In this document: positions 1 through 10,792 of the stretch, piece by piece | Layout of the letters: the number at the start of each line of letters is the position of its first letter | Position numbering within the stretch: position 1 is the first letter of the stretch | Program-made: the position numbers and the translations under genes | The notes under the pieces: generated by a model | Seen by the model: the letters and a program-made list of their open reading frames with translations, nothing else | Told to the model about the DNA's origin: nothing | Database searches by the model: none | Source of the DNA: a virus | Direction: 5' to 3' (one strand) | IMG/VR virus record: IMGVR_UViG_3300030090_004549 | Span: 1 to 25,373 of that record | DNA: 25,373 nt

Positions 1-191
1 GAAAACGTTTTAACATCAGATATAGAAGTACCACCGTTAACAGCAGCGTATACTGTAGAAAATTTTAATTGATTAGTTAATATATTTTTAATATCATATT
101 CATAACCTTTGTAAACAAATTGTCCACAACAAGTTTTTGGTGTAGCACAAGAAGTTAAAACTATTAAAATTAATATTAATATTTTTTTCAT
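1..191 (-). CDS. Predicted small lipoprotein, 3' part outside the window
   Basis: The N-terminal 63 residues of an exported lipoprotein are visible; the rest lies beyond position 1. The start is Met-Lys-Lys, followed by a run of Ile/Leu/Val and a lipobox Leu-Thr-Ser-Cys with the modifiable Cys at residue 15. Residues 16-24 (ATPKTCCGQ) contain a Cys-Cys pair. The rest is a mixed sequence ending in GGTSISDVKTF at the edge. The ATG overlaps the stop of the upstream 714-residue gene by four bases (ATGA), so translation is probably coupled. Expected location is the inner or outer membrane facing the periplasm. By position, after ejection proteins and next to a one-TM protein, it could be an outer-membrane spanin subunit or a superinfection-exclusion lipoprotein. 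Nothing in the visible sequence proves either, and I do not recognise the family with certainty. The coding call is firm; the function is open. Confidence 0.8.
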   Translation of the reverse strand, partial: MKKILILILIVLTSCATPKTCCGQFVYKGYEYDIKNILTNQLKFSTVYAAVNGGTSISDVKTF

Positions 192-2332
192 TTTACAAGT
201 TTCTTTTCTGTTGTACCGTCATCGTATATAAAGATTAACAGTTTGTTTTTAGTTATTTTAGCAGGTCTACCTAATAAATCTGTAACAGCTACTAAGTTTG
301 CCATACGTTTTGGTAATGGACCAACCCAAGCACCTTGGCAATAGTCATAAGTTGCTCCACATATATTATCCCACTCGTTTTCACAACAATAAGCGTCTAC
401 ATCTATAACCCATGCATAACACGGGTCGTTTAACCAATAAGGTATACCTGCACCAGTAATACAACCAGCATCATACAAACAAGCGGTAGTATCATTAACG
501 TTGGCAGTTAAATCATAATTATAAGCATTAACATCCATACAACCATGTATTATTTCAATACAAGAGCCATTATCTGCATTAGCATCTTCGTTATAATTAA
601 AAGCTGTAGAGTCAGTACAACCATAAACAAATGGTATACAGTTACCATCATCAGTGTTAGCTATAGGATCGTAATTAAACATTGTAGGATCTATACAACC
701 ATATATATAAGGTACACAACTACCATCATCAGTATTTGCATTAGCATCATAATTAAATGCTAAAGGCTGCATACAACCTAATATTACAGGTGTACAACCA
801 CCATTATCTAAATTAGCTAAACTATCATAATTAAACGCCGTGCTATCAGTACAACCCCATATAGCTTCTGTTTGACAATCACCATTGTTGTAATCAGCAG
901 TAAAACCTTGAGTATAATATTCTAAATATTGTGGATCTGTACAGCCGGGTTCATAATAGCAACTACTATCACTAGTGTTGGCATTGTTATCATAATTATA
1001 AGCTGTTGAATCCATACATCCATAAACATAAGGCGTGCATATTGTAGGGCAATTTGGCAAAGCTATGTATTTATCTGGAAACAACATTATTCTGTCACTC
1101 CAAGGGTTTGTACCACCTGAAGCTATAACAACACCTTCTGGGTTTATTAATTTAAAACCTATTTGATCTATAGTAGCGTCAGAGCTTGTTTGTGAGTAAG
1201 CTCTAATTGTAACTGGGTGGTTTGATTTTAATTCTAAATTTATAGTTTCAATAAATGAACTTATATTAGTGTAAGGACCATATGAATTACCTAATTGATT
1301 TACTACAACGTAAGCGCCTAACCAACCATCACCACCACCATCAGTAAGCTCTAGTACATAACCACAAGTGTCTTCCATAAGTGGTGTGTTAGCTATAGGG
1401 TTAAAATCGAACATAGTGCTATCCATACAACCTATTACTCTAGGTGTAACGCATAATGCTGGGTTATCTATATCGGCCGCTGGATTAAACTCTAAGTAAG
1501 CTGGATTAGGACAACCAACAACAGGTATCCAGCTACAGTCTTTCATTATAAACACATCTGATGTGTCACCGTGACCAAAGTTTAAGTTGTCACCTGGTGT
1601 TAAACTATATATAGTATCACCACACTCATCTGTAATTAAGGCATAACCATCAACACCACCAAAACAACTTCCACATATTCCATCACCATACGAGTCATAT
1701 ATCATAAACTCAACTGTATCACCTATTGGTACACATATTGTTTCGGTATAAGTATTACCAGTACCTACGCTCCAAAAAAATCCTTGTGGTATACTATATA
1801 AAACACTATCATCTTGATTTATAATACTCATAGATGTTTCGCCAGAATATGTGTCTGGCACAAACTCTATTGTTATAGATGTTTTTGTAGTATCTAAACA
1901 ATCGTCTTGTGGTGGTGGTATTGCTAAACAAACATCAGGTATATTAGCTAGAGGATTATAATTATCATATGATGGGTCCATACAACCTTCAATACATGTA
2001 AATTCACTAGCATATATTGTATCGGTAAAACTACCATCAGCCATTTCCAAAACCATCCAAAAACCCTCTGAACTAGCAAAAGGATCACCTGGACTATAAT
2101 TATTATAAAAAGAATAATTAGTTTGGTTTTGATTACCCCAACCCCAACTATAAGTATTATAAGGTGTACCTCTATGAATATTAGCTATAACACATCCACT
2201 GTCTAGTGGTTGCCACTCTACCCAAGTTCTTGCATAGCCATACATACACGTGTCAGTAGCTACTAATGTAGGAACACAATTTTGTGCAAAACTAAATATA
2301 GGTAATAATAATAATAATAAAATATTTTTCAT
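188..2332 (-). CDS. Secreted Cys-rich repeat protein with T9SS-like C-terminus
   Basis: The protein has 714 residues. Residues 1-16 are a signal peptide (Met-Lys-Asn, six Leu, then FSFA) with likely cleavage before Gln17, a pattern typical of Bacteroidota. Ten copies of a 21-24-residue unit G-C-x-D-x(3)-[FY]-N-Y-x(3)-A-N-x-D-[DN]-G-x-C follow. Isolated copies start at residues 116, 273 and 301, and seven form an array at 438-618. Between them are two beta-type domains, one with DSYGDGIC (213-220) and one with GGGDGW (332-337). Residues 648-665 hold a YCCE-x-EWD-x-IC type motif. The end (681-714, with TDLLGRP and FIYDDGTTEKK) resembles the last strands of type IX secretion sorting domains. Such modules are common in flavobacterial surface and secreted proteins, so a host origin of the gene is plausible. 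The ATG follows the upstream TAA with no gap. A virion tail fibre is less likely because of the signal peptide. The molecular role is unknown. Confidence 0.85.
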   Translation of the reverse strand: MKNILLLLLLPIFSFAQNCVPTLVATDTCMYGYARTWVEWQPLDSGCVIANIHRGTPYNTYSWGWGNQNQTNYSFYNNYSPGDPFASSEGFWMVLEMADGSFTDTIYASEFTCIEGCMDPSYDNYNPLANIPDVCLAIPPPQDDCLDTTKTSITIEFVPDTYSGETSMSIINQDDSVLYSIPQGFFWSVGTGNTYTETICVPIGDTVEFMIYDSYGDGICGSCFGGVDGYALITDECGDTIYSLTPGDNLNFGHGDTSDVFIMKDCSWIPVVGCPNPAYLEFNPAADIDNPALCVTPRVIGCMDSTMFDFNPIANTPLMEDTCGYVLELTDGGGDGWLGAYVVVNQLGNSYGPYTNISSFIETINLELKSNHPVTIRAYSQTSSDATIDQIGFKLINPEGVVIASGGTNPWSDRIMLFPDKYIALPNCPTICTPYVYGCMDSTAYNYDNNANTSDSSCYYEPGCTDPQYLEYYTQGFTADYNNGDCQTEAIWGCTDSTAFNYDSLANLDNGGCTPVILGCMQPLAFNYDANANTDDGSCVPYIYGCIDPTMFNYDPIANTDDGNCIPFVYGCTDSTAFNYNEDANADNGSCIEIIHGCMDVNAYNYDLTANVNDTTACLYDAGCITGAGIPYWLNDPCYAWVIDVDAYCCENEWDNICGATYDYCQGAWVGPLPKRMANLVAVTDLLGRPAKITKNKLLIFIYDDGTTEKKLVK
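479..1021 (-). repeat. Coding tandem repeat array, about 72-78 bp units
   Basis: Seven consecutive units encode the Gly-Cys-x-Asp ... Asn-Tyr ... Ala-Asn ... Gly-x-Cys module (residues 438-618 of the secreted protein). On the plus strand the blocks TACAACC and CATAATTAAA (or CGTAATTAAA) recur at each period with near-identical spacing. The units are similar but not identical in DNA, so the array is old enough to have diverged yet still offers short homologies for unequal recombination. Two conserved Cys per unit suggest one disulfide per module after export. The Asp/Asn-rich cores could bind calcium, as in thrombospondin type 3-like repeats, but this is inference. Confidence 0.85.
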
Positions 2333-2692
2333 TTAAAAATCACTCATTAATTGATTATCTATTTCTTCTTGTACTTCTTCTCTTGTAGCGGCTAATGTAA
2401 AACTAAGATCAGCTTGAAACCTAGCGACTTCTTCACCATCTTTAAATATTATAATTGTAGGAACAGATGCTATTTTATATTTTTTCTGTGCATCAACATC
2501 TTTAGCAACATCTGTGTAACCTATAGTATTACAATCTTTTAAACTTTGTACCCAAGAAACGTCATTAGCTTTATTCCAACTAGCATTAAACTGAACCACT
2601 TTTATTTGACCAAAACATATACTAGCAAATAACATAAAAACAATTATCAACATGTATATAACGCGAGTTGGCCAGTTAATATTATCTGTCAT
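2333..2692 (-). CDS. Exported thioredoxin-like protein lacking the CxxC site
   Basis: The protein has 119 residues with a hydrophobic stretch at 11-27, followed by a thioredoxin-like fold. The beta strand IKVVQFNASW (30-39) sits where thioredoxins have the strand before the active site. The canonical W-C-G-P-C is replaced by W39-N-K-A-N43, so both catalytic Cys are missing. The cis-proline loop is kept as A-S-V-P78-T, followed by IIIFKDGEE (80-88), the standard thioredoxin strand and turn. Thiol-disulfide exchange through a CxxC is therefore impossible; only Cys26 and Cys54 remain. The ATG used overlaps the previous gene by 11 bp. An internal ATG at residue 14 (2651-2653) would avoid the overlap and give a classic signal peptide ending CFG|Q, so it may be the true start. 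It sits with three other envelope genes and may act as a binding scaffold or chaperone. I recall similar proteins in marine flavobacterial phages. Confidence 0.85.
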   Translation of the reverse strand: MTDNINWPTRVIYMLIIVFMLFASICFGQIKVVQFNASWNKANDVSWVQSLKDCNTIGYTDVAKDVDAQKKYKIASVPTIIIFKDGEEVARFQADLSFTLAATREEVQEEIDNQLMSDF

Positions 2693-2993
2693 AAAGCTTG
2701 TCTTCTATTTTTTCTAATGTTTTTTTAATTTCATCAACATCAGTTTTTGTGTCCATAATAGTTTGTCTTATCATTTGATCTTTCATGTCAAACTCCATAC
2801 GTGTAACCTCTGCGTCTGGAAGCTTTTCTTCCCACTCAGGATTCCACTCGTTAGCTGGTAGCTCTTTTGCTTCTGCTATATCAGCTTGTAATGTAAACCA
2901 CATGCCAGCTAAAGTTGCTATCGCAAAGCCAGCACCTATTATTGTTTTTATGCTTAATTTAAACGATGTATCTTCATTTAATTCTTTTGCCAT
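2682..2993 (-). CDS. One-TM coiled-coil protein, holin-position candidate
   Basis: The protein has 103 residues. A polar N-terminus (MAKELNEDTSFKLS) is followed by one predicted transmembrane segment, about residues 15-37 (from IKTIIGAGFAIATLAG). The acidic, Trp-containing part AKELPANEWNPEWEEK comes next. The C-terminus (about 64-103) is heptad-like, with Met, Ile and Leu at regular spacing and many charged residues, consistent with a coiled coil. The architecture resembles XhlA-type holin accessory proteins, but with reversed order of TM and coil. The gene comes directly after the ejection-protein genes and overlaps the next gene by 11 bp, where T7-like phages carry tail-fibre and lysis genes. 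A holin, antiholin or inner-membrane spanin role is possible from position and topology only. I recall homologues in uncultured marine flavophages, where they remain hypothetical. The start is ATG with no Shine-Dalgarno motif. Confidence 0.8.
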   Translation of the reverse strand: MAKELNEDTSFKLSIKTIIGAGFAIATLAGMWFTLQADIAEAKELPANEWNPEWEEKLPDAEVTRMEFDMKDQMIRQTIMDTKTDVDEIKKTLEKIEDKLYDR

Positions 2994-3031: not shown

Positions 3032-6000
3032 TTAACGGTTTTTACTTTTTCTTTTGTTTTCAAGTTCTATGATTTTTTTAACTCTATCTTCTTCATATTT
3101 AAGCTCTTTTATTTGACTAGGAGATAAACCTAAGTTCATAAGCATGTTTACTTGTTCGTTTTTATTCATTTTAAACAAATCAATTTCTCTTTGCTCGCTT
3201 TTATCAGGAACGTAATTTTGTATATCAGACACTTGTTTGTCTATTTTGTTTTTGTTTTTGTCGCGTAGTTTCATTATAGCGTCAACTCGATCTTTTTCTA
3301 GCTTATAATTTTTAGGATTTAAACCATTTTGTTGTAATATACGCTCTTGCTCTCTTTTATTTAAATCATATATAGTTTTTTCGGTTTCTAGTATATCTAT
3401 TTCTTGTTTTGTTTTACCTGGGTATTTTTTCTTTAGTTTAGTTTCTTTATTAATTTGTTTTTGATTTTCTTTAACACGCTGTCTGGCTTCTTGTAAAGAT
3501 TTATTTTCAATGCCAACATCCCACTTACTCCAACCAGCTAATACAGCTACTCTTTGCCACCAAGCATTTTGATTATCTAAACCAGCACTTATATTTTGCA
3601 TTTTTCTATGTAATCTAGCTAATGGTATATTTGTAAGACCTTCTATAAATGTTGTTGTCATTTGCCACAAAGGATTTTCTATATCAAGTAAAGACATTTC
3701 TTTTATAGCGTCTTTATTCCAGTCTAAACTTCTTTCAGCACTTCTTAATTTTCTTATTTTAATACCTATAGGTGGAGATATTTGTAGTAACTCTTCCCAA
3801 GCTGGTGTTTTAAAAAACTCTTTGCTTTTTTGGTTGTCAACTAATTTAATAGCATAGTTTTTAAGTGTAGAAATAACAGCACCACCAACACCCATACCTT
3901 TTAATATATTATCAAGAGTACCATTTATTACTCTATCTTTTTTAGTCTTAAAAAAATCTTCATCTTTCTCGTCATCGTCAAACATCATTGCGAAAAGAGC
4001 TGTTTGTAAACCATAAAATATAACACTTTGTACAGCTCCATAATATATTATTTTAGATATATTAGCCATATCACTTTGTTTTTGCGTAGTATATGGTGGT
4101 GAAATTCTTCTATTTACTAAATCTAAACTAGATTTTTTAATTAACCTTACGTATTGTGACGTTACGTTTTGAAACGCTAATATTAATCTACCAAGAGTTG
4201 ATCTTTGTTGCTGTGATACCATATCAGGCCTAGATGACTGTTGAGTTGCTTCTGCAACTTCCATAAAGTCATTAAAAGCTTTTTCAGTAGCTTCTGCTTT
4301 CGTTAAGCCTTGTTTTATATAAGTGTTAATTCTATTTCTATAAAAACTAGCACCACCAATAGCAATAGCAAAACTATCACCCATTTGTGTAGGTAAAAAA
4401 CCTAGATTTAATATATACTTTATAGCAGCTCTAACAGGATTACGAGATGAAGCAACTTCTCTAGCTATTTCACTAGCGTTTACATCAAAAGCAGCACCAG
4501 ATCTTCTTTGTTTTAAGAAGTCTGAATTAAATAAAGCAGCAAAATCTGCCCAAAATTGTTTTTGATTAGCAAAAGCTTTAGCAGCTTTAAATATATTATT
4601 ATCTGCAAAATTTATAAAGTTAACAAAAGAAAGTTGCTGTAATAAAGCAGATCTAATATTAAAGAACATCGTAGCACCAACAGAACCGTTAATCCAATCA
4701 AGCCAAGCATTAACTATTCTATTATTACCAGTAGGTCTATTTGAGCCAGTTTTATTTACATAAAGCATATCTTGTAATGCTTCTACAAAATTATCACCAA
4801 ATATAGCTCTAATTTTATTTATATTTTCACTAGAAAATATAATATCTGCATTTTCTTGATATTCTGCAAAAAACTTAGCTCTACCAACTCTACCTGTAGC
4901 ATCGACTAAATCGTATTTAATATTACTAATTTCCCAACTATCACCAGGTTGCACATAACCTTCTTTCATCCTAGATATTTCACCAACAATATCTGCAAAA
5001 TTTTGTAGTGTAGTATCATTTTTAATAAAATTTACTAGTTGTGCTTGATCTGTTTTGCTAAGTCCTGGTATTTCAAAGCCAAATTTATCCCATAAATAAA
5101 CTCTTATACTATCTTCAACAGTAAAATCACCATCAAGTATTTTTTCACCTAAACGTTTACGTACTTTTGGCATAGCTTTTATTAAAGCTCTATAGTCGTT
5201 TGCTATAGCTTGTTTAGCCCTATTTAACTCTCTATATGCTTTGTTTAAAGGTTTTATTAAAGCTCTTTCAAAAAAGTCTCTGTGCTCGTTACCTTTTTTA
5301 CTTCTACCTATAAAATTATATAATAATCCTACAAAGTCTTCATGTGATGGTGGTACAAAAAGTCTAAACCTACCTTTTCCAGCTCCACGTTTTCTAGCTT
5401 TTGCATCTGAAAAACGTTTTTTTGAATCAATACCAGCTATATCTTCTAATATATTATTAAAATCAGTATCTAATGTTTTACTAAATTGAACTCTAACTTG
5501 TTGCACTTTAGATTTAATATCTAGTTGATCTAAAACTTGTTTAACAGCTTTTACATTAGACAAAGCATCATCAACAAAATACATATCGTTATATCCTTCT
5601 GCAAACTTATTAAGCATCCACACTGCTTTTGCTTGACCAGTACTATCACCTAATCCAGTTATATTTTTTAAAGGTATGTTTATTCCTTTTGACTTTAGCC
5701 AACCTTGTATCGCCGAAGCACTTTCTGGCGGTCTTGCTGTTAAAACAAAAACATTACTTGGTCCAAACTTTTTTATTTGATTACGCATTTTTTGTAATAA
5801 AGGCCCTTCAATACCACCTCTAACCTTAACAAAGTCACTAAAATCAAAAGTGTAGCCTTGTTCTGCTAAATCTGGTCCTTGTATAGGCCATTCACCACTT
5901 GTTATTTTTATAGTTTTATCACCTTTTTTAGCTATAATAAAGTTTTTACCTTTATCAATAAGTGTTTCATCAAAATCAAAAGTACTCATACCTCTAGAAG

Positions 6001-9000
6001 TTTTACTGTACTGTACTGTTTGTCTTGCGTTTTCTACTGATTTACTTAAGTTTACGCCAATTTCTTTATTAGCTGTTTCTTTTGCTGATTCTATAAATGC
6101 TTTTGTAAATTTTTCATCTAATAAACTAGCCGTTGTATCTACAAATTCTTTTTCATTAAGTAATGGCTCTACTCTAAACTGAACTTTACCATTTTTACCT
6201 AAAACCATACGGGCTTGTAAAGTTATTTTACCGTTTTTATCTTTGAGATCTAAATCTTCTATTATATTATCTGGATTAGCAATATTCCAGTCATTTTTTA
6301 TTTTTGATGTAGTTTTGTTAAGTTTTTCGTTATTAGTTACCATTCTAAAAAACTTATTACCTATTTGTATCATACCCTGAGGTGCTTTACCATACTTACC
6401 GCTAGAGTAAGCGTTCATAACATGGTCTAAAGTAACTTCAGTAGTAGTATAATATTTAGATCTACCATTATCCGTTAACCATTGCCTTTGGTTTTCGTTT
6501 AATTCAAAATTAACAATATCGCCTAAACCAGCTTTTTTAAGATCTGCTTGTAATTGCTCGTATTGATCTATCAACAGATCAGCCATTATATCATCAAAAA
6601 GCCTATTTGTATTAGGATCTATCGTTGGATTTTTAACATTGCCACCACCAAAAACAGATGGATATGTAACTATAATTTTATTGCCTTCAAGTTTAAATGA
6701 TACTAGCTGTGATACGCCTCTAGCTTTATGAAGCTTAACTTCTATACCAAGTGTAATAGCTTTAAGAAGAGGTATATATACATCTCCTTTTAATTTAAGT
6801 TTTGTTTTGTTTAAAACTTTTGTATACTTAGATATTATGTTTTTTATTCTATATTCAAAAGCATTACCTAAATTAAGTTTTTCACCTTTTTTACCAAGTT
6901 TGACTATATCACTAACAAGTTTTTGTTCTAAAACAGGATCATCAACAATTTCAGCATGCTCATTTGCTTTTACTATTTTATATATTTTTTCCGCAGCAAG
7001 ATCTTTATCTTTTTTAGAGTGTTCTCTTTGCCCTTTTTCAAATATTTTTTTAAACTTTATTTTAAGAGAATAATTTTTACCATCTTTCTCAACAACTTTA
7101 TCTAAACTAGTTTTATTAGTTTTTATATCGTTTAAAACATTTAATATATTATTAGCTAACCCATCTAGTATTTGTGTTCTAGAAAACTGTACATTTGGAT
7201 TTCTACCTATTACTACAGATAAGTTTTGAATATCAGTATCATCTATTGTCTCGCCTTTTAGTTCAGCTATTTGCTGTCTTTTTTCTGCAACTTCAGTTTC
7301 TTGAGCTACTTGCATTACAGCGTCTAACGTTAAAGAGTTTGCTAGGTATGTTGTTAGTTGATCTTTTCTAGTACCTTTTAAACCAGATCTAACACCTGTT
7401 ATAGGGTTTTTAAGCGGTTGATCAAAAAATGCAACAAAATTATCTTGTTGTTTTTGATCTCCTTCTACTTGCACTACTTTTTCATAAAGATTTACAGCTT
7501 GACCTTTTTTTATTTTATTAATTTCAGAAGGTTGTAATAAATTTTGATCTATAGCATTTTGAACATCTTCTACTCTAGTAAGTTTTCTTACAAATCTAGT
7601 AAAAACTTTTTCGTTATCAGGAACATTTCTTTCCATTTGAACTAAATCAGCAGTAAACATAGAGTTTATAATTTCTACTCTAAGTTTTGAAATAGTAGGT
7701 ATATACTTAGCACCTACACCTAGCATGTTTTTTACTTGTTTAAATATATAGGCATTAGCTTCTTTTTTCAACGCTATTTGTATGTTTCTAACACTTCGGC
7801 CAGTGTCATATGCTCGTAGTAAAACTTTACGCGCTGTTTCTAAAACCGTGTTATATGCTTCACTTCCAGTTTCAATACCTAGTGTTTTTCTTAACTTAGA
7901 TGTTTTAGGTTTTTTATCTAAATCAGCTTTTGCTTTTCTTCTTGCTTCTGCTTGAGGTGATATGTCTTGTTCTTCTATATCTTGTTGTTCTGTCGCGTCA
8001 GTATCTTCTATATCAAAAGTTCTTTCGCCTTCTTTAGTTCTTTTAGCAGCGTCAATACTTTTTTCTTGTTTTGTTTTAGCTGCTTCTGTAGCTAATTTCT
8101 TAGCAGCATCTAGTTTACCAAAACCTACATTTGCCATTATAAACTCACCTAATGTTATAGGTTCACCAGTATCTGTTTTTCTTTGCGCTGCAGGATTAAA
8201 ATTCATTAATCTATCAGCAACCCTATCTATAGTTTCTTCTGTTTGCTCAGGACTTAATCTTAAGCTTTTTATATAGTTATTTATAGCACCACCATCTTTT
8301 ATTATAGAGCTATATATTTTGTTAAATATATTTGGCTTTAAAAACTGTTCTCTAGTTTTAGCGCCTTGTTGCATTTTATTAATATCACTAACAAGTTCAG
8401 TTCTTGATAATTGAGTTTTACCACCAGTGTCGATAAACTGCTCTGCATAACTAATATCTCTACCAGCTCTAACATCTTTAGCAAAATTTTCCAAAAAGTT
8501 AAACATGCTCTCCGCATTATTAAATTCGAAGTTTTTATAATCTGTATTTTCTCGTATTGCCTTGTTATAAAACGGTATTAATTTTTGTAATAAACTAGTT
8601 CTTTTTTTGTAATATTTTCCTCTGTCAGCAACTTGATCTGAAAATTTATTAAACCATTCTACATTAACATCTGAAGATATACCTCTACCTTTACTATCAT
8701 CGTCTACTGCTTTTTCTACTTGCCTATAAGTTTTTTTATCTAATTTAGATTTTAGTACTTTTTTAAAATTAGTTATAAGTTCTTTTTTCTTTTTTGTACT
8801 AAGATTATAAAACTTGTTATCTGTTATATTATGAAAAACCTCGTGTGATCCAACACGCTCATAAGCACCTACTTCTACAGCTCTTTCTCTATCTATAAAC
8901 ACAGTACCATCTTCAAATTTAATACCTTCAGCTCCTTCGTATTCAATTATTGCTCCTTCTCCTAGTTTTTTACTAACCGCTGTATTAAAAGCATCACTAA

Positions 9001-10792
9001 AATCAAAAGCTTCAAAAATAAGGCCTTTTGCTTTTTGTATAAGACCTGCTTTTTCTTGCTTTTCCATTAATTGACGACGTACATCAACAGATTTTTTAAC
9101 ATCACCTTCTTTTAAAGGTGTTGTTGTTTTATCAGCATAACTATCGTAAATAGCGTCTATTTGTTCTTTTATATCTTTTACTTTTGTAGGTCTACCTAAA
9201 ACCTCAACTAATTTAGCTCCTTTTTCTTTAGCTGTATCTAAAGCGGTTTCTAAAATGTATAATAAGTTTCTATCTGTTTCTGATATAATGTGTTTACCAG
9301 TTTTTGGATCTCTTGGTAATGCGTTCTCTTTTTGAGCAGCTTTTCTTCTAGAATTATATTCTTTTTCTAGTACAGGATCGTTTTTAATATTTATACCAGA
9401 AGTAACTATATCAGCGTTGCTTCTATTTGGATCAGATAAAATCTCCCATATATCGTTTCTACTAACTGGGCTATCGTTAATTTCATAAACAGGTGGATTA
9501 ATAACTTGGTTATAAACAGACAGAGCAGTTACAGGTCCACCACCAGTTGCTTCTAAAAATAATTCTTTTGGATCAGACTCTTCACCAATAACTTTTTGAC
9601 TTAAATATTCACCAGTAGCTCCACCAGTGCCTTCTGCCACAAAAGCAGCGCCTGTCATTACTAAAGGCCTGGTAGTTAGCTTTGCGGCTGGTAGTGTTGT
9701 CATTGTAACGGCTTTACCAAAACCAAGAGTTGCGGCACTTACAAGAGTATCAACAGCAGCTATAGTAACACCTTTAGTGATAGCTTTAGTTCTTATTTCT
9801 CTTAATTTTTCAGGATTTTCTTTTACAAACTTTTCAAAGTTTTTATAAGTAAACTTCATACCAAGCTTGTTCATTTCTTCACGTATTAACTCTCCAACTT
9901 TTCCTGTCGCTTCTAACGCGCCACCAACACCACCCATCAAACCACCAAAAGCACCAGATACAGCACCTACTGTACCAGTTGCTAAAGCACCAGGCCCTGT
10001 AATAGCACCAATTCCAGCACCAACACCAAAACCAACAGCCGCCCCAGTCCCAGCTCCTGCTAAAGCCCAAGATAAACCTTCCTTTTGAGTAAGTCCCACT
10101 ACCATACTAGAAATAGAACTAGCAAACGTTTCAAACATTAACGTAGGACTCATTCCAGATAAAGCGTCCATTGCATCAAAAGTACCGTTTTCAGTAATTG
10201 GGTTCCTAGAGTTCATATAAACAATCATCTCATCGCTCATACCATACTCACTTTGTCTTTCTATTGCTTCAAAAAGTCTTTTTTGTTCACCCGGTGTTAA
10301 CTTACGATTTTTAACTTTAAATGCTAAAGCCAAATCATCCATGTCTAAAGCTTGCATTACGCCTTTTTTACCTCCTCTATAAAAATCTGAAACAAAATCA
10401 GTAAGTTGGTTTTTACCTAATAGTGTTTCTGCCCAAGTATTTTTTTCTTGAGTTCCTCTTTCACCTACCTTCCACCAGTCTACAAAACCTTTCCAAGTAC
10501 TTAACGTAAAAGGATCATCTTTATATTTTTCGGCTAAAGCTTTTTGCTGCTTTATACGATCTTCCCTCATGTCAAAGGTTTCAATTAATTTACCAGGATG
10601 ATCAAGCACAAAACTATCTATGTTTTGATTTTCAACATAATAAACCATATTACCCACATAAAGTTTTTGTGAACCACCACCTTCGCCACCTCTTAAATAA
10701 ACAGCAGTAGGATTATCTTTTTGAAATTTTTCTACTTCATTTGGCTGTATTTCATATGTAGCTCCAGTTTCTGGTATTTGAAATATATACAT
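3032..10792 (-). CDS. Giant internal virion (gp16-like) protein with peptidase and HAD domains
   Basis: The protein has 2586 residues, about twice T7 gp16. Visible order: a small N-terminal domain (1-75); a glycine-rich hydrophobic segment (240-294), suited to membrane insertion; a zinc-peptidase-like motif H650-E-V-F-H654 with Glu712 as possible third ligand; and charged, helical linkers. A HAD phosphatase-like domain follows (about 1602-1765), with DFDET at 1606-1610, TARP at 1685-1688 and DD at 1741-1742. A large helical core (about 1800-2270) includes a TM-like stretch near 2245-2270. Two helical repeats of about 46 residues end the protein (2471-2516, 2534-2580). The motif Q-[FYL]-S-[KR]-T occurs at 794, 1202, 1594 and 1769, near domain borders. 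It follows 300- and 865-residue proteins in the same order as T7 gp14, gp15 and gp16, so I infer a DNA-ejection protein that crosses the envelope. The core resembles, from memory, uvMED phage giant proteins. Enzyme activity is untested. Confidence 0.85.
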   Translation of the reverse strand: MYIFQIPETGATYEIQPNEVEKFQKDNPTAVYLRGGEGGGSQKLYVGNMVYYVENQNIDSFVLDHPGKLIETFDMREDRIKQQKALAEKYKDDPFTLSTWKGFVDWWKVGERGTQEKNTWAETLLGKNQLTDFVSDFYRGGKKGVMQALDMDDLALAFKVKNRKLTPGEQKRLFEAIERQSEYGMSDEMIVYMNSRNPITENGTFDAMDALSGMSPTLMFETFASSISSMVVGLTQKEGLSWALAGAGTGAAVGFGVGAGIGAITGPGALATGTVGAVSGAFGGLMGGVGGALEATGKVGELIREEMNKLGMKFTYKNFEKFVKENPEKLREIRTKAITKGVTIAAVDTLVSAATLGFGKAVTMTTLPAAKLTTRPLVMTGAAFVAEGTGGATGEYLSQKVIGEESDPKELFLEATGGGPVTALSVYNQVINPPVYEINDSPVSRNDIWEILSDPNRSNADIVTSGINIKNDPVLEKEYNSRRKAAQKENALPRDPKTGKHIISETDRNLLYILETALDTAKEKGAKLVEVLGRPTKVKDIKEQIDAIYDSYADKTTTPLKEGDVKKSVDVRRQLMEKQEKAGLIQKAKGLIFEAFDFSDAFNTAVSKKLGEGAIIEYEGAEGIKFEDGTVFIDRERAVEVGAYERVGSHEVFHNITDNKFYNLSTKKKKELITNFKKVLKSKLDKKTYRQVEKAVDDDSKGRGISSDVNVEWFNKFSDQVADRGKYYKKRTSLLQKLIPFYNKAIRENTDYKNFEFNNAESMFNFLENFAKDVRAGRDISYAEQFIDTGGKTQLSRTELVSDINKMQQGAKTREQFLKPNIFNKIYSSIIKDGGAINNYIKSLRLSPEQTEETIDRVADRLMNFNPAAQRKTDTGEPITLGEFIMANVGFGKLDAAKKLATEAAKTKQEKSIDAAKRTKEGERTFDIEDTDATEQQDIEEQDISPQAEARRKAKADLDKKPKTSKLRKTLGIETGSEAYNTVLETARKVLLRAYDTGRSVRNIQIALKKEANAYIFKQVKNMLGVGAKYIPTISKLRVEIINSMFTADLVQMERNVPDNEKVFTRFVRKLTRVEDVQNAIDQNLLQPSEINKIKKGQAVNLYEKVVQVEGDQKQQDNFVAFFDQPLKNPITGVRSGLKGTRKDQLTTYLANSLTLDAVMQVAQETEVAEKRQQIAELKGETIDDTDIQNLSVVIGRNPNVQFSRTQILDGLANNILNVLNDIKTNKTSLDKVVEKDGKNYSLKIKFKKIFEKGQREHSKKDKDLAAEKIYKIVKANEHAEIVDDPVLEQKLVSDIVKLGKKGEKLNLGNAFEYRIKNIISKYTKVLNKTKLKLKGDVYIPLLKAITLGIEVKLHKARGVSQLVSFKLEGNKIIVTYPSVFGGGNVKNPTIDPNTNRLFDDIMADLLIDQYEQLQADLKKAGLGDIVNFELNENQRQWLTDNGRSKYYTTTEVTLDHVMNAYSSGKYGKAPQGMIQIGNKFFRMVTNNEKLNKTTSKIKNDWNIANPDNIIEDLDLKDKNGKITLQARMVLGKNGKVQFRVEPLLNEKEFVDTTASLLDEKFTKAFIESAKETANKEIGVNLSKSVENARQTVQYSKTSRGMSTFDFDETLIDKGKNFIIAKKGDKTIKITSGEWPIQGPDLAEQGYTFDFSDFVKVRGGIEGPLLQKMRNQIKKFGPSNVFVLTARPPESASAIQGWLKSKGINIPLKNITGLGDSTGQAKAVWMLNKFAEGYNDMYFVDDALSNVKAVKQVLDQLDIKSKVQQVRVQFSKTLDTDFNNILEDIAGIDSKKRFSDAKARKRGAGKGRFRLFVPPSHEDFVGLLYNFIGRSKKGNEHRDFFERALIKPLNKAYRELNRAKQAIANDYRALIKAMPKVRKRLGEKILDGDFTVEDSIRVYLWDKFGFEIPGLSKTDQAQLVNFIKNDTTLQNFADIVGEISRMKEGYVQPGDSWEISNIKYDLVDATGRVGRAKFFAEYQENADIIFSSENINKIRAIFGDNFVEALQDMLYVNKTGSNRPTGNNRIVNAWLDWINGSVGATMFFNIRSALLQQLSFVNFINFADNNIFKAAKAFANQKQFWADFAALFNSDFLKQRRSGAAFDVNASEIAREVASSRNPVRAAIKYILNLGFLPTQMGDSFAIAIGGASFYRNRINTYIKQGLTKAEATEKAFNDFMEVAEATQQSSRPDMVSQQQRSTLGRLILAFQNVTSQYVRLIKKSSLDLVNRRISPPYTTQKQSDMANISKIIYYGAVQSVIFYGLQTALFAMMFDDDEKDEDFFKTKKDRVINGTLDNILKGMGVGGAVISTLKNYAIKLVDNQKSKEFFKTPAWEELLQISPPIGIKIRKLRSAERSLDWNKDAIKEMSLLDIENPLWQMTTTFIEGLTNIPLARLHRKMQNISAGLDNQNAWWQRVAVLAGWSKWDVGIENKSLQEARQRVKENQKQINKETKLKKKYPGKTKQEIDILETEKTIYDLNKREQERILQQNGLNPKNYKLEKDRVDAIMKLRDKNKNKIDKQVSDIQNYVPDKSEQREIDLFKMNKNEQVNMLMNLGLSPSQIKELKYEEDRVKKIIELENKRKSKNR
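3035..3382 (-). repeat. C-terminal duplicated helical module of the giant protein
   Basis: Residues 2471-2516 and 2534-2580 align with each other: E-x(2)-[IL]-[FY]-x(2)-N-K-[RN]-E-Q-x(4)-[LM], then G-L-[NS]-P-x(6)-L, and then [EK]-D-R-V-x(2)-I-[IM]-[EK]-L. The copies are clear at protein level and strongly diverged in DNA, so this is an ancient duplication. The sequence is highly charged and predicted helical. It could mediate oligomerisation of the ejection tube or bind a partner protein. Confidence 0.6.

Follow-up and report, generated by a model that had tools for sequence, protein, structure and literature searches.

A conserved phage family of putative type IX secretion cargo with a short, exchangeable C-terminal tail

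Phage genes for cargo of the type IX secretion system (T9SS) have been described in Cryophage, for which a hijack of the host T9SS was proposed (Bellas et al. 2020, PMC7468147). The cargo there, an endoglucanase, a GH39 and a PA14 protein, has type A domains and was called a unique occurrence. Proteins with T9SS sorting domains are also encoded near the structural genes of Bacteroidota gut phages, where they contain BACON domains (PMC6949934). Phage-encoded T9SS cargo as such is therefore not a new proposal.

In Bacteroidota with a T9SS, the canonical sorting domain, TIGR04183 (Por_Secre_tail), forms the very C-terminal end of proteins exported by Sec. It has 72 positions, starts with YPNP and forms a seven-strand (4+3) sandwich. 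Short C-terminal domains (CTDs) have been reported in Prevotella intermedia, where they form one three-stranded sheet with the motifs B, D and E; cleavage and glycosylation of short-CTD cargo are proven there, and the authors state that short CTDs side by side with long ones have been reported from no other species (Ye et al. 2025, PMC11969387). In HBP35, the last 22 residues are the region required to export a GFP fusion (Shoji et al., PMC3120885). In our literature search, which covered mainly openly accessible papers, short CTDs were reported only from P. intermedia, and there was no further paper on phage T9SS cargo.

The phage and its cargo gene

The window, i.e., the whole stretch of DNA analysed here, is 25,373 bases long and forms the beginning of an IMG/VR record of 32,874 bases. 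The remainder of the record encodes terminase-like, portal-like and major-capsid-like proteins, named by gene order and size. The ring proteins are similar to those of Maribacter phage Panino, Cellulophaga phi38:1/Calle and Flavobacterium elemo phages, and the gene order from the terminase to the giant late protein is parallel to that in Panino and Calle_1. Judged from its sequence, the contig is a podovirus akin to Cellulophaga phi38:1/Calle. We infer the putative host lineage from the related phages and from the tail described below.

The cargo gene is complete (188..2332, minus strand, as are all features below), has an ATG start and encodes a putative T9SS cargo protein of 714 residues. 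A previous sequence-only reading of this DNA, which gave no strand, had listed a signal peptide ending in FSFA|Q, ten GC-D-NY-AN-DDG-C modules, a CC-x-x-EWD-x-x-C motif and a C-terminus with TDLLGRP and FIYDDGTTEKK, and its description is right. The Sec signal peptide, recognised from the sequence and the relatives, covers residues 1-16 (2285..2332); the leader is MKNILLLLLLPIFSFA, with cleavage before Q17 of QNC. The AlphaFold2 strands outline two beta-sandwich domains with approximate limits, one at residues ~144-265 (1538..1903; pLDDT 82-90) and a second of the DGGGDGW type at residues ~324-425 (1058..1363; pLDDT ~72-89). By pattern search, there are exactly ten GC...C modules, starting at 116, 273, 301, 438, 463, 493, 519, 545, 571 and 597. 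The first three lie outside the array that is formed by the other seven at residues 438-618 (479..1021), and the protein has 38 cysteines in all. The CC-EWD domain follows at residues 624-665 (338..463), as delimited from alignment A2 and a listing of the C-termini, and its motif, CCENEWDNIC, is at residues 649-658. The C-terminal end of the protein is VTDLLGRPAKITKNKLLIFIYDDGTTEKKLVK. Its putative sorting tail, LVAVTDLLGRPAKITKNKLLIFIYDDGTTEKKLVK, occupies residues 677-714 (191..304), is ~40 residues long and runs up to the stop codon. It is delimited by the alignments A3 and A4 and the AlphaFold2 model, together with the CTD exchange and the multi-copy occurrence in bacteria discussed below.

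Scans of the window protein against Pfam, NCBIfam and PHROGs gave nothing of use. The AlphaFold2 model, based on 74 sequences, has a mean pLDDT of 72, and a Foldseek search of the full model against the PDB returned only generic C2/Ig-like sandwiches with TM-scores of at most 0.25, so the fold provides no clue to the function of the cargo.

Relatives of the cargo are encoded by 139 viral contigs, and 80 of these relatives (36-93% identity) were retained for analysis; among 50,697 phage records there is no full-length relative. Complete members have 621-1121 residues and 8-17 modules, and their N-terminal regions vary. A signal peptide is present in 75/75 complete N-termini, and in 73 of them a glutamine occupies position +1 (71 by the script pattern, as well as L074 with FGQ and L080 with TAQ by eye), which is the Bacteroidetes Q-rule (PMC5837995). 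Both body and tail are under purifying selection: in five close pairs, dN/dS is 0.07-0.11 in the former and 0.11-0.22 in the latter. This selection, and the number of viral contigs that contain relatives, show that the architecture of the cargo is not down to chance.

The two exceptions to the glutamine at +1, L070 (5678-8008) and L071 (7440-9770), have a lipoprotein-like leader (LQAC...ECCGQ) that is otherwise seen on the barrel protein encoded next to the cargo; apparently, the leader was swapped between the two neighbouring genes. Four loci encode, upstream, a second large protein with the cysteine repeats of the cargo (L008:89-4576, L072:2-5614, L076:3-2744 and L080:2-2914), and the one in L008 starts without an evident signal peptide. 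A full-length relative with a canonical CTD is also found, adjacent to the same barrel gene, in a bacterial genome bin (L238, contig 32 of genome G404). This contig is probably a prophage or a binned phage contig and might point to a host.

The short tail in phages and bacteria

The short tail is present in 67 of the 80 relatives. The other 13 end in a canonical T9SS sorting domain (YPNPT...G-x-Y...I-I-K), which sits directly after the same CC-EWD domain, the last one that short-tailed and canonical-tailed relatives have in common. TIGR04183 matches 12 of 59 scanned C-termini (best E 1.8e-13), which is the number of canonical-tailed members scanned, and its curated NCBIfam cut-off of 23 bits is exceeded in 11 of 49 phage records, every time only at the cargo gene. 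On body trees, 10-11 switches of tail type are required, and well-supported branches make 10 of these unavoidable; the count has to be read with the caveats that the trees were made by FastTree and that these modular proteins probably recombine. The tail type is also no more clustered on these trees than shuffled labels, and the tails therefore act as interchangeable parts. A phage-encoded, Sec-exported protein with a T9SS domain is seen directly in the relatives with a canonical CTD, and the window protein is connected to it through the exchangeability of the tail.

The sequence-only reading had described the tail as shorter than a full T9SS domain, and this holds. Its proposed search of the C-terminal region against TIGR04183 and TIGR04131 gave no match, and at E<=1 neither these nor the other NCBIfam sorting-domain models match the window tail, which has no match to any Pfam or NCBIfam model. 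The same is true for the other short tails, none of which matches TIGR04183, while the canonical-tailed relatives do, and which are also missed at E<=1 by the type B (TIGR04131) and type C (NF033708) models. An hhalign comparison of the short tail with the canonical CTDs of the relatives is not significant, and we therefore do not claim sequence homology between the two. A viral scan with the short tail gave 118 matches, and the best 80, which include a fragment of 59 residues, all belong to the cargo family.

AlphaFold2 predicts three strands in the tail, at residues 680-684, 697-703 and 708-713, with moderate confidence (block pLDDT 66-79). The three strands are as in short CTDs, and the seven-strand sandwich of the TIGR04183 domain is not seen. 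The placement of the tail, at the extreme C-terminus of a protein with a Sec signal, is as in TIGR04183 proteins. The phage tails carry NxxLLxxIY and lack the GxY that known CTDs have as motif D. In the alignment, the region of motif B has an invariant glycine and an arginine in at least 90% of the tails but no tyrosine, and most tails have a basic end, EKK or ERK followed by LIK.

In bacterial and archaeal genomes, a 46-residue tail query is found in 214 places, of which 78 were kept; these have Bacteroidota titles, nearly all from Flavobacteriales MAGs (e.g. Cryomorphaceae and Crocinitomicaceae). The tail ends exactly at the stop codon in 78/78 of these loci, and 61 of the 70 complete tail-bearing ORFs have a signal-like start. 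Nine genomes, chosen for having the tail, contain 1-40 copies each according to the 40-position tail model (A4), and all nine also have 45-150 canonical sorting domains. One copy is found in the cultured Lishizhenia tianjinensis. Within the order Flavobacteriales, A4 detects the tail in 57 of 148 genomes (1-48 copies each), compared with only 2 of 297 genomes drawn phylum-wide. SprA is present in 55 of the 57 tail-bearing and 68 of the 91 tail-less genomes (Fisher p = 5e-4), a difference confounded by genome reduction, because many of the SprA-negative genomes are ~0.6 Mb and belong to genome-reduced endosymbionts that have neither.

The bacterial short tails have no NCBIfam match and no convincing Pfam score. 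The exchange of tails can also be seen in a host esterase family, where, among 30 homologues read, approximately 20 end in the short tail and three in canonical or near-canonical CTDs; some of the short tails have GF at the canonical GxY position. We suggest that the tail, present on up to 48 proteins per genome (L082-L159; G004, G006, G008, G314 and G347), is a candidate for an unnamed family of T9SS sorting signals.

The fallback offered in the sequence-only reading, that the tail is a remnant, does not agree with these results. The tail is conserved, is under purifying selection and is multi-copy in bacteria. It is unlikely to be decayed, since it is swapped with a canonical domain in 13 of 80 relatives by at least 10 exchanges, since Flavobacteriales with small genomes, nearly all of them with SprA, have 1-48 proteins each that end in it, since the esterase family alternates between both tail types, and since its three predicted strands are like those of the short CTDs of P. 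intermedia.

Neighbouring genes and a possible export route

The cargo gene shares a late operon with the gene for an outer-membrane barrel of the phage. The barrel gene is directly downstream, and its start codon overlaps the cargo stop (ATGA). The contig start cuts the gene, leaving the first 63 residues (3..191), and it was identified from a complete homologue (L012:9027-10142). The barrel protein has ~360 residues and no Pfam family. Aligned with 39 relatives, the L012 homologue is predicted by AlphaFold2 to form a barrel of 12 long strands (pTM 0.67), which in Foldseek resembles the outer-membrane barrels FapF, Tsx and NanC; the nearest viral structure, A0A516LKJ4, has 23% identity.

Upstream of the cargo, on the same strand, is a thioredoxin-fold protein (2333..2692) with an N-terminal hydrophobic segment (membrane or signal), assigned from weak Pfam and NCBIfam thioredoxin matches and a motif survey. 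In nearly all relatives its WCxxC is replaced by WNxxN, and therefore it is probably no redox enzyme. Also upstream on this strand is a 103-residue protein (2682..2993) with a single TM segment and a coiled-coil-like, charged C-terminal half; relatives of 93-103 residues exist in 70 of the 80 loci, and a lysis-related role would be a guess. All three neighbours, the barrel, the TM protein and the thioredoxin-like protein, are present in 69 of the 80 loci; the barrel gene may precede or follow that of the cargo. The sequence-only reading had proposed a survey for the same gene at the same locus; relatives are encoded by 139 viral contigs, and the neighbours are conserved. A late protein of 2586 residues (3032-10792) has an HExxH-like stretch (SHEVFHNI) and a HAD-like stretch (STFDFDETLID) and is probably multi-domain; related genes are found in 53 of 80 loci.

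From the comparative evidence, we consider it likely that the phage cargo passes first through the host Sec and then through the host T9SS machinery, to be displayed at the cell surface or released there. The central part of the earlier reading, export through the host T9SS, is well supported, as some relatives have a canonical domain and the same tail is multi-copy in mostly SprA-bearing Flavobacteriales. Since the cargo bears both host export labels, a protein of the virus is probably exposed on the surface of the infected cell. Sec and signal peptidase I would free the cargo into the periplasm with its N-terminal glutamine exposed. The host T9SS would then read the ~40-residue tail as a short sorting domain, presumably via PorV, and carry the cargo over the outer membrane, where it would be anchored or released. 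There, the variable, cysteine-rich modular part could alter the surface of the infected cell jointly with the co-encoded barrel, the most likely effects being adhesion or the masking of receptors against competing phages.

These effects are proposed because the variable display domains, the repeat arrays and the companion barrel fit them. Receptor masking or superinfection exclusion is a real possibility as the surface role, if short of an even chance; adhesion or aggregation is possible but rather doubtful, and other roles share the rest. It can also be speculated, as an unlikely extension, that the phages possess a dedicated surface-remodelling module, in which the barrel anchors or escorts the variable cysteine-rich cargo and the short sorting signal belongs to a class of T9SS signals in marine Flavobacteriales that has no name yet.

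Other explanations of the locus have to be weighed against export through the host T9SS. The cargo might be exported by Sec only, to stay periplasmic or be freed at lysis, and its tail might be a relic or belong to some unrelated system for anchoring. The lack of a statistical sequence match between the short tail and known CTDs agrees with this. However, purifying selection acts on the tail, it is interchangeable with canonical CTDs both in the phages and in the host esterase family, and in a single genome of the host lineage as many as 48 unrelated proteins have it, all of which makes Sec-only export improbable. It is quite improbable that the cargo is a virion component, such as a tail appendage or head decoration, in which the hydrophobic N-terminus and the tail serve otherwise. 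Its gene does come after the late structural genes, and one record labels a protein of Synechococcus phage S-CAM3, in which a stretch of repeats is similar, as a 'virion structural protein'. However, a cleavable signal peptide, conserved in every complete relative, would be needless for a virion protein assembled in the cytoplasm, the 38 cysteines fit an oxidising compartment, and 13 relatives have a canonical T9SS CTD. TIGR04183 matches nothing in the cultured relatives Panino, Calle_1 and elemo, which include those whose structural genes are in the same order.

Finally, the gene could be bacterial DNA that was misassembled or binned into a viral contig, as 57 of the 148 Flavobacteriales genomes are rich in repeat modules similar to those of the cargo. 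Such an artefact is contradicted by the conserved synteny of the barrel, TM and thioredoxin-like genes, by the number of viral contigs with the gene and by the terminase-, portal- and capsid-like genes on the contig of the window, and can hardly be entertained. Export of the cargo through the host T9SS thus remains the preferred explanation.

Comparison with known secretion signals and phage cargo

The window cargo resembles that of Cryophage in being a phage product linked to T9SS sorting domains; the cargo genes there were proposed to vary between phage variants (PMC7468147). Unlike the assorted Cryophage cargo, it belongs to a single conserved family of phi38:1-like podoviruses, whose members mostly have a short tail invisible to the models. 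The likeness to the BACON proteins of gut phages (PMC6949934) lies in the sorting domain and in the locus near structural genes. Compared with TIGR04183, which stands in the place of the tail in 13 relatives, the window tail is without the first half of the domain.

The closest likeness in the tail is to the short CTDs of P. intermedia. Both have ~40-55 residues, a predicted three-stranded sheet and a basic C-terminal end, and motif B and the window tail have an invariant glycine plus a basic residue in common. However, tails of the window type have N-x-x-L-(F/I/L)-(Y/F)-I-Y in place of the motif-D GxY (or GxN) and V/I-T-D in place of the motif-B tyrosine, and their lineage is marine Flavobacteriales and their phages. 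The glycine plus basic residue and the basic end are there but the motif-D GxY is absent, and we therefore liken the tail to a short CTD in its putative function without placing it in that group.

What is new is a conserved marine family at a fixed locus, a short tail that is multi-copy in Flavobacteriales, and natural tail exchanges; in the literature covered, such a short sorting signal appears not to have been described before in this lineage. This would turn an isolated prediction from one glacier phage into a conserved, testable strategy of common marine viruses. If it is true, annotation pipelines overlook secreted proteins in marine Flavobacteriales with small genomes, in some cases dozens in one genome, and short CTDs extend beyond P. 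intermedia. The natural swaps between short and canonical tails are then nature's own experiment, which would mark the short tail as a working T9SS signal.
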